Source: Candidatus Schekmanbacteria bacterium | GTDB taxonomy: Bacteria; SZUA-182 | DNA length: 40,659 bases | Direction of reading: 5' to 3' | Assembly (NCBI GenBank): GCA_016235675.1 | Contig: JACRJN010000187.1 | Location: 1 to 40,659, forward strand | In this document: positions 33,696-36,116 of the stretch, piece by piece | How the letters are laid out: each line of letters begins with the position of its first letter | Position numbering within the stretch: position 1 is the first letter of the stretch | Notes under the pieces: model-generated | What the model was told of the DNA's origin: nothing | The model's database searches: none | The model's input: only the letters and a program-made list of their open reading frames with translations | Made by a program: the position numbers and the translations under genes

Positions 33696-35039
33696 ATGAA
33701 AAAAATCTGGCAATTTTTTTGTTCACTCAACCTGACCGTCTATCTGGGACTGGCTTTGTGTGTTCTGCTGCTTATCGGCTCTTTCTGCTTCATGCTAAGC
33801 GGGGAGAATCTGGCGGGGTTAAACAGCGAGGTGCTTTTCCCCTGGCTGATTAAATGCGGATGGGCGGGGCTGACTTATACCTGGTGGCTCTGGCTGACCT
33901 TAATCGTGATAGCCTTGATGGGAATCAATACATTTGTTTGCAGTATCGATCGCTTAAGCGTCCTGGTGCCTAAGGTATTGCGCCCCAAGCTGGATGTAAC
34001 CCGGCAATATTTGTCCGGCCTTGCGCTTTCCCAGGAAATGCTTTTGTCCGCACCCGTACCGGAAATCCAGCATCTTTTACAAAAAGCCTTACCTTTTAGC
34101 GGGTTTAAAAAGTTTCAGCAAAAGCAGCAGGCAGACGGAAGTCTGGTAATCTTTGCCCAAAAAGGGCGCTGGGCGGTTTTCGGCCCCTATATCGCCCACT
34201 TGGGATTCTTGTTGGTTTTGACCGGGCATTTAATCGGCAGCATTTTTGGCTACAAGGATTTCGGAGCGCCCGTCACTCATGAGGAAAAATATTTTATTGC
34301 CGACAGTTCGTTGTGGATCAGGTTGTTGGGGATGAATCCCTGTGTTAAAGGGGATAAAACCTCCGGAGATTGCGGGACTATCAATATTGGAGAGAATAAC
34401 ACCTTTTTGCAAAAATTCATGTTCGGCCCCAATCAGCCTTTGTTTTACCGGGGGTTCGCTATTTATCAGGGTGACTGGGAAAGACGGCTTAAAGCGGTTA
34501 ATCTGACGGTTAAACATAAAGACGGCCAGGAAAACCTGCTGATCCGGATGGGGGAGCGGAAAAATTTGAATCCCCAACTCAGCCTCATGCCGTATCTGAT
34601 TTTGCCGGATTTCGCTTTTAGTCCGGAGGGGAGGCCCTCTTCCCTTTCCGAAAAGTTTGATAACCCGGCCTTATATTTATTGGTTTTCCAAAATGGAGCG
34701 CCGGTTAAGCAAGGCTGGCTGTTTTTGCATAATTATAAATTACAAAGCCTGTATTATAATGATTGGGAGATAAAATTCAGCGGACTGAGTACTTATACGG
34801 TGTTATATGTCAACATCGCCCGCAATCCGGGGGCTTATCTGGTTTTAACCGGGGGAATCATCTTTATTTTAGGCAGCGCCTGGTTTTTATTGGGCAATCA
34901 TCGGCGGGTGTGGTTTTATCTCCAGCCTCAGGAAGACAAGACCTTACTCATTCTGGCCGGTTTGGCGGGGCAAAGACGGACTAAATTACGCGCTCAGATG
35001 GAACATATCGGGGAGCGTTTGAAAAGACACTACCGGTAG
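33696..35039 (+). CDS. resB: Cytochrome c biogenesis protein ResB (Ccs1)
   Basis: The 447-residue protein begins MKKIWQFFCSLNLTVYLGLA, the classic ResB N-terminus. It has TM helices at about 15-35, 68-90, 167-187 (PYIAHLGFLLVLTGHLIGSI) and near 385-405 (AYLVLTGGIIFILGSAWFLL), with a large periplasmic domain between the last two (NQPLFYRGFAIYQGDWE). H of AHLGF and other His are candidate heme ligands. It works with CcsA in system II cytochrome c maturation. The TAG stop codon lies inside the GTAG end of a palindromic repeat, so the final residues (RHYR) may derive from the insertion. The track start at 33621 is within a repeat. Confidence 0.93.
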   Translation: MKKIWQFFCSLNLTVYLGLALCVLLLIGSFCFMLSGENLAGLNSEVLFPWLIKCGWAGLTYTWWLWLTLIVIALMGINTFVCSIDRLSVLVPKVLRPKLDVTRQYLSGLALSQEMLLSAPVPEIQHLLQKALPFSGFKKFQQKQQADGSLVIFAQKGRWAVFGPYIAHLGFLLVLTGHLIGSIFGYKDFGAPVTHEEKYFIADSSLWIRLLGMNPCVKGDKTSGDCGTINIGENNTFLQKFMFGPNQPLFYRGFAIYQGDWERRLKAVNLTVKHKDGQENLLIRMGERKNLNPQLSLMPYLILPDFAFSPEGRPSSLSEKFDNPALYLLVFQNGAPVKQGWLFLHNYKLQSLYYNDWEIKFSGLSTYTVLYVNIARNPGAYLVLTGGIIFILGSAWFLLGNHRRVWFYLQPQEDKTLLILAGLAGQRRTKLRAQMEHIGERLKRHYR

Positions 35040-35086: not shown

Positions 35087-35122
35087 AAAAAAACCGGGAG
35101 TTGTTGCCAACTCCCGGTTTTT
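35087..35122. terminator. Bidirectional rho-independent terminator
   Basis: Stem AACCGGGAGTTG with its exact complement around TTGC, flanked by A-run and T-run (AAAAA...TTTTT). It can end both the ccsA-resB transcript and the converging RRM-protein transcript. Confidence 0.92.
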
Positions 35123-35141: not shown

Positions 35142-35471
35142 TTAATAGCGGTTGCGTCCGCCGCCGAATCCACCTGAGCGACCACCACCACCGCCGCCGA
35201 AACCTTCACGACGATTAGTGCTGCGGGCAGCCTTCGGACGTGCCTCATTTACGGTAATGGTTCTTTCGCAAAGCTCTGTGCCGTTCAATGCTTCAATCGC
35301 GGCTTGTGCTTGCTCTTTTTCAGGCATCTCAACAAAACCAAAACCCTTGGAGCGGCCTGTTTCGCCATCGACGATAATCTTGGCGGTCTGGACTTCTCCG
35401 TATGCCTCAAAGGCTGTTTTCAGGGCGTCTTCAGTCAACTGGTAGCTGAGATTGCCTACATAGATATTCAT
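35142..35471 (-). CDS. RRM-domain RNA-binding protein with glycine-rich tail
   Basis: The 109-residue protein is one RNA-recognition motif: RNP2 IYVGNLSYQ at residues 3-11, RNP1 KGFGFVEMP near 42-50, followed by ALNGTELCERTITVNEARP, then a Gly/Arg tail (FGGGGGGRSGGFGGG). This is the bacterial Rbp type known in cyanobacteria and many other phyla, where some are induced by cold and bind mRNA. The ATG at 35471 is chosen since MNIYVGNL is the usual beginning; the ribosome binding site is a weak GAGAAGAAG. A promoter about 440 bp upstream predicts a long leader. It shares a bidirectional terminator with resB. Confidence 0.95.
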   Translation of the reverse strand: MNIYVGNLSYQLTEDALKTAFEAYGEVQTAKIIVDGETGRSKGFGFVEMPEKEQAQAAIEALNGTELCERTITVNEARPKAARSTNRREGFGGGGGGRSGGFGGGRNRY

Positions 35472-36116
35472 GCTTCTTCTCTTTCTCTTTTGCCATGTTT
35501 TAGTGTTCAATCGAAGGTCTGTCCATGGCATTGTGACATATTTCGATGGTACCTTTTCTTAAGGGATACCAGCCTTTTTCTTGAAAGCCTTTAAATTAAA
35601 TGCCGTTTCCTATATTTGTGTATTTTTTATTCCTAAACAACATAAACCACACATATAGAACTATTACCGGTCTTTTAAACTATTTTAAGCTTTAAGTAGA
35701 TGAAAGAGCAGTTTTCGGAGAGCTTAAAAGGCATTTAATCAATTGGGCGGATAAAAACATCACTCTATGAACGGTAGGAACCTCGCAATAGAGAACTCAC
35801 CAAAAGATAAAATAGACTGCAACTCACTGAAAACACATTTATTACAACAAAACCATAATGTCAGACGTTATGGTCGCCATAATCAAGAAAGTTAGCTTTC
35901 ATATATTTATGAATTAAGTATACTGATTTGTTATAGACTTGTCAATTAAAATTTTAACAATTTTATTTTTTATATAAAAATTCATATCCTTGCCCCTTTA
36001 TATATCCCTTGGCAAAACACCATTATTTTTCTGGTTAATAAATATGTCTTTCATGATACTATAGATTTATAGGTTTGCCAATCCACTTCTATAGCGCGCA
36101 GGAAAAGAGTAACTCT
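35472..36116. other. A/T-rich intergenic region holding the RRM-gene leader
   Basis: No coding frame is convincing here. The minus strand from about 35909 to 35472 should be the 5' leader of the RRM gene. Near the other end the plus-strand sequence before the pentapeptide gene is A/T-rich, with TACTAT at about 36057 but no good -35. No palindromic repeats are seen, unlike most other gaps in the window. Confidence 0.6.
35917..35945 (-). promoter_or_regulatory. Sigma-70 promoter of the RRM RNA-binding protein gene
   Basis: Minus strand TTGACA, 17-bp spacer, TATACT. It is the only strong promoter between the RRM gene and the divergent pentapeptide gene, giving a predicted leader of about 440 nt. 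Confidence 0.75.

Follow-up and report, generated by a model that had tools for sequence, protein, structure and literature searches.

A conserved pseudoknot leader beside the start codon of bacterial RRM protein genes: a candidate translational operator

Neither the ligands of bacterial RRM proteins nor the control of their abundance is well understood. In a stretch of 40,659 nucleotides from a Candidatus Schekmanbacteria bacterium (hereafter the window), a minus-strand RRM gene adjoins a 645-nt gap, and a sequence-only reading of this DNA proposed that the gene is transcribed from a distant promoter with a long, constrained leader. Is the leader as long as proposed, and which part of it is constrained? 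The locus is laid out as follows.

35142-35471, minus strand: RRM protein gene, 109 amino acids, one RRM_1 domain and a glycine-rich tail (open reading frame, Pfam)
35472-35577, minus strand: conserved leader element, made up of the P1 hairpin, an H-type pseudoknot and a purine-rich ribosome-binding region (74-79% DNA identity in relatives G007 and G005; covariance model matches)
35578-35916, minus strand: unconserved distal stretch of the proposed leader (no match beyond chance in 97 genomes)
35917-35945, minus strand: promoter-like site TTGACA-17-TATACT, 11 of 12 matches (promoter scan)

The gene runs from an ATG at 35471 to a stop at 35142, and the match of its product to Pfam RRM_1 (E=1e-25) bears out the earlier assignment; homologues of the protein occur in 55 of the 97 genomes compared. 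A longer protein was considered and rejected: the upstream frame is open in the window (a 129-aa ORF), but a stop stands just before the AUG in one relative (G005:C7), and the upstream translations diverge between relatives. On the far side of the gene, a strong terminator-like hairpin that could serve in either direction (35089-35122) separates it from a convergent plus-strand gene ending at 35039.

Length and conservation of the leader

The promoter-like site some 440 bp from the start codon is present as described, with a predicted transcription start at ~35910 and hence a leader of ~439 nt. Sites of this quality number only 5 in the whole window, both strands included, and shuffling the 645-nt gap produces an equally good one in just 2% of cases, which makes a promoter here plausible. 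That this site is the only good one depends on the scan: a strict scan finds no site of at least 9/12 near the gene, whereas a relaxed scan yields TACACA-16-TTTAAT (9/12), which would give a leader of ~117 nt and lies just ahead of the conserved part. In a Lentisphaerae relative, GWF2_49_21 (L062), the best promoter (TTGACA-18-TATTAT, 11/12) would leave a leader of only ~138 nt, and in the other relatives the distances of the best promoters are scattered. The long leader of ~440 nt is unproven; the short pseudoknot by the start codon is the real feature.

When the 474-nt leader (35472-35945) was compared with 97 genomes, real matches beyond the sequence itself covered only the last ~105 nt. 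These have 79% DNA identity in G007 and 79% and 74% at two places in G005, and all of them adjoin RRM genes; the distal ~370 nt (35578-35945) find no match in relatives beyond chance. The claimed constraint, and the conservation check that was proposed for it, thus hold for the conserved, structured segment at 35472-35577 and fail for the other ~370 nt. A single structured RNA spanning the whole 440 nt was rejected on the grounds that the folding energy of the whole leader is unremarkable (z = -0.08) and that conservation ends at 35577.

The observation that the leader is free of repeats proved correct, in that the region holds no direct-repeat family and occurs only once in the genome; dispersed repeats are abundant in the rest of the window. 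Among these are the palindromes CAGGCTTCCAGCCTG and CAGGCATCTTGCCTG, which occur six times in the window (7733, 29112, 35042, 35062, 38925 and 38995) where none is expected. The distal, unconserved leader contains a 14-nt inverted repeat of 93% identity (35595-35608 and 35726-35739).

Anatomy of the conserved element

Read in the direction of transcription, the element is composed of the following parts.

35547-35571, minus strand: P1 hairpin UGGUA-U-CC ... GG-UACCA, present in the copies of the window's own phylum and weaker elsewhere
35542-35547, minus strand: P2 5' strand AUCGAA, pairing with 35510-35515 (91.7% of cells paired, 14 sequences)
35535-35538, minus strand: P3 5' strand UGUC, pairing with 35520-35523 (compensatory UGUU/AACA in G005b)
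35524-35530, minus strand: pseudoknot strand 1, apical loop UGCCAUG (pairing with 35491-35497 in 94.8% of cells, 14 sequences)
35520-35523, minus strand: P3 3' strand GACA (covariation)
35510-35515, minus strand: P2 3' strand UUCGAU (covariation)
35498-35509, minus strand: L3 linker of 12 nt, A-rich in the family (50 A among 97 bases), with constant spacing
35491-35497, minus strand: pseudoknot strand 2 CAUGGCA, 19 nt before the AUG (complementarity, covariation)
35472-35490, minus strand: purine-rich ribosome-binding region AAAGAGAAAGAGAAGAAGC, read from the sequence

A comparison of the related copies gives good support for folding the conserved ~105 nt into the hairpin P1 followed by an H-type pseudoknot, in which two helices cross, both with covariation. 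The loop lengths fit this fold (L1 4 nt, L2 0, L3 12 nt and A-rich), H-type pseudoknots usually having a short L1, an L2 near zero and an often A-rich L3 that spans stem 1. The span that starts one base ahead of P2 and closes with pseudoknot strand 2 measures exactly 58 nt in all 8 copies from the window's own phylum and L062, and the loop sequence GCCAUGGACAG is well conserved. Judged by the reading frames, what is conserved is a non-coding element and not a protein, because the upstream frame is not kept. A conserved upstream peptide starting at the AUG within CAUGGC was rejected as well: reading the copies by eye shows that neither its frame nor its spacing from the real start codon (20-27 nt) is constant, and that G003a has CUG instead.

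Across all helices 85.7% of cells pair in ten sequences, and in the fourteen core sequences 91.1% of cells pair over P2, P3 and the pseudoknot; the covariance analysis suggested by the sequence-only reading thus came out in support of the helices of the element. In the set of fourteen the covariation score and the number of double changes beat those of 500/500 shuffles, a figure that is not a probability because the shuffles ignore relatedness, and sliding one strand by 1-3 columns lowers pairing to 30-40%. Compensatory changes occur in every helix, the replacement of UGUC/GACA by UGUU/AACA in P3 of G005b being among the clearest single cases. P1 has 63% of its cells paired and three pairs with double changes; the pseudoknot helix has two such pairs in the fourteen sequences, its first pair being seen as C-G, U-A, A-U and U-G and its last as G-C, G-U and A-U. 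In most copies the pseudoknot complementarity exceeds that to shuffled downstream sequence. Many pseudoknot pairs are invariant, and sequence identity also accounts for part of the pairing; the loop strand is shortened in G237, and G441 has one mismatch. A sister version of the element, on paralogous RRM leaders in the phylum of G011, passes from GUGCCAU/AUGGCAC (L241) to GUGUCAU/AUGACAC (L250), with GUGUCAU/AUGGCAC (L249) as an intermediate.

Taken one by one, the copies mostly have ordinary folding energies; nested folding favours the long-range GCCAUG/CAUGGC helix in the majority of them and, in G003b and G237, P2/P3. This preference would suit a switch between two exclusive folds, in which either the P2/P3 hairpin or the long-range hairpin forms and the two never coexist in a pseudoknot. 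We consider such a switch unlikely: in the window copy the helices share no base, the loop lengths fit a coexisting H-type fold, and both sets of helices are conserved together. The overall proposal that a structured, constrained leader precedes the RRM gene was right, with the constraint residing in a compact pseudoknot that abuts the ribosome-binding site and not in 440 nt.

A family of RRM leaders and its relation to known RNAs

The element precedes RRM genes in four genomes of the window's own phylum (7 genes) and in L062, with one element for each RRM gene copy (three in G005, two in G003 and one in G000). A weaker form is found in G011, which lies outside the window's phylum, and in a Desulfobacterales MAG (L065); most members of the family are metagenome assemblies. 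A covariance model (R1), built from ten sequences using only the bases upstream of the start codon and blind to the pseudoknot, was applied to 386 genomes and three phyla. Outside the training set it gave nine matches at E<=0.01, six of which, all in other phyla, immediately precede an RRM start codon (G237, G382, G397, G398, G399 and G441), and in the genome of the window the RRM leader is its only match. All high-confidence matches precede RRM genes. A second model restricted to the core (R2) found no further RRM leader, and weak matches of either model away from RRM genes (E 0.001-0.1) were treated as chance. Since only L062 and L065 match among 80 named RRM loci searched, the exact family is not universal. 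In a LacPavin MAG (L061), a common leader containing UUCGGGACAG and CCGCGAA precedes both of two neighbouring RRM genes (starts 3001 and 3727); it is perhaps a diverged version of the pseudoknot.

The window matches none of the Rfam families, permissive thresholds reveal nothing related in its leader or in those of the relatives, and no Rfam riboswitch model matches either. The only earlier RRM-leader RNA found in Rfam and the literature is the Chlorobi-RRM RNA motif (RF01697), a conserved RNA assigned to RRM genes and marked as probably cis-regulatory (Weinberg 2010, PMC2864571). Like the element described here, it is a conserved structured RNA in the leader of an RRM gene; unlike it, its model consists of two tandem nested hairpins over 73 positions, without a pseudoknot. 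At the curated threshold of 45 bits Chlorobi-RRM has no match in the window or the 14 member loci, and it rises above its cut-off in none of the 386 genomes; with no model match and a different fold, membership was rejected. A structured leader of an RNA-binding protein gene is of a known kind, and the family is new as far as the comparison with Rfam and the literature shows, the 224-motif survey of Weinberg 2017 lying outside that comparison.

Two protein systems offer parallels. The RbpB protein of Bacteroides thetaiotaomicron, from another phylum, likewise has a single RRM, and its own mRNA contains an RbpB binding site, which makes autoregulation possible; the parts of that report consulted describe no pseudoknot leader (PMC11697453). 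Cyanobacterial rbp genes, which also encode small glycine-rich RRM proteins behind a conserved 5' UTR, carry sequence boxes for cold response and are by that description set apart from the present element (PMC9333190).

A possible translational operator and its putative wider occurrence

Pseudoknot leaders under autogenous control are established for the ribosomal proteins S15 (rpsO) and S4, and S15 acts on the pseudoknot of its own leader. The RRM element resembles these leaders in placing a pseudoknot against the ribosome-binding site of an RNA-binding protein gene, with no terminator; it differs in protein family, sequence and helices. The element accompanies RRM genes copy for copy and the protein they encode binds RNA, which makes autogenous control the leading hypothesis and the autoregulation mentioned by the sequence-only reading a sensible guess; the high-confidence matches, lying before RRM genes only, show the restriction expected of an autogenous operator. 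We infer that it acts on translation, as a repressive site bound by the RRM protein, and a cis-acting translational operator for which this protein is the likeliest stabilising ligand is both the simplest account and, in our judgement, a reasonably probable one.

The last ~105 nt of the mRNA leader would fold into P1 and then the pseudoknot, the apical loop of the P2/P3 stem pairing with the strand just 5' of the Shine-Dalgarno region. Once the pseudoknot is stabilised, its last strand and the junction would occupy the landing ground of the 30S subunit, and initiation would therefore fall; both would lie within the usual 30S footprint, leaving the purine-rich ribosome-binding bases uncovered. 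That the RRM protein itself supplies the stabilisation is suggested by analogy with S15; RRM proteins usually bind single-stranded RNA, which counts against one holding a pseudoknot. Transcription attenuation was rejected, since nothing resembling a terminator is present on this strand of the leader.

A temperature-responsive or cold-shock leader, in which pseudoknot stability sets translation without a protein ligand, has a precedent in the cold-response boxes of cyanobacterial RRM genes (PMC9333190), and the helices are short and A/U-rich in the window's own phylum. The Shine-Dalgarno bases nevertheless stand outside any helix: 19 nt separate the end of the last helix from the AUG, and the purine-rich stretch lies 3' of that helix, unlike in RNA thermometers that hold the Shine-Dalgarno in a weak helix, other thermometer designs being conceivable. 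Nothing in the sequence points to temperature and the members come from many phyla, and we regard thermal control, like the switch above, as improbable. Slightly less probable still is an element that protects or processes the mRNA or serves as a small-RNA target, in place of protein-mediated control of initiation; such targets, too, commonly lie close to the ribosome-binding site, and the loop GCCAUGGACAG is well conserved, but that loop is already used in the pseudoknot. A metabolite riboswitch with a small pseudoknot like those of preQ1 or SAM-II, of similar fold class and likewise beside a ribosome-binding site, is very improbable, given that all confident members precede one type of gene and no riboswitch model matches.

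Does the putative translational operator extend beyond this family? In a scan of 110 RRM leaders for H-type pseudoknots, each against 100 shuffles, 33 reached P<=0.05 (5.5 expected); outside the window's family 17/91 did so, and 13/91 reached P<=0.01. Leaders of other genes, used as controls, gave 10/106 and 3/106 at the same two levels, and two of the latter three appear to overlap RRM leaders. A swap test without folding compared each leader's own pairing of positions -85..-38 with -34..-9 to the pairing after partners were swapped, and placed 15/91 RRM leaders outside the family in the top 1%, as against 3/120 control genes (Fisher P = 3e-4). The trend was weaker in a later set of 30 usable leaders, drawn from forty additional loci (5 at <=0.05, 0 at <=0.01). 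Taken as a lead, these tests suggest a tendency, among the RRM leaders of other phyla, for the strand ahead of the Shine-Dalgarno sequence to pair with a more upstream part of the leader. The swap test reports pairing back and not always a pseudoknot, because one RRM group in the phylum of G059 has a nested hairpin with compensatory changes in its place.

Several leaders were noted individually. In that phylum, MKIYVGNMAFS-type RRM leaders (L296, L297, L298, L301) have a nested two-tier hairpin before the ribosome-binding site, with the compensatory forms GGGUG/CACCC, GGGCG/CGCCC, GGUGA/UCAUC and GCGGAUGA/UCGUCCGU. L255 and L293 (G059:C46) carry GUGUCAUG/CAUGACAC around a hairpin, very like the G011-phylum sister version (L250) though in a different phylum; a search for a larger homologous clade of the GUGUCAUG-type leader reached only five genomes. 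A second RRM subfamily, of the GSKLYVGNLNY type (L149 = G000:C90, L150, L151, L242), seems to have its own leader pattern, CUCCAARAGAAACAUU; in L150, L151 and L242 its CUCC might base-pair with the ribosome-binding GGAG.

That pairing back before the Shine-Dalgarno, often as an H-type pseudoknot, is a general operator of single-RRM glycine-rich protein genes across phyla is a tentative proposal, somewhat more doubtful than the operator itself; if true, bacterial RRM proteins would share one old or repeatedly evolved feedback device. The conserved element probably lets the cell, perhaps through the RRM protein itself, control RRM protein output. A compact conserved RNA at the start of its own mRNA is a ready candidate ligand for the protein, which makes autoregulation testable by a reporter with compensatory mutations in the two strands and provides a defined RNA for binding and structural work, and a cross-phylum family absent from Rfam would let such leaders be annotated.
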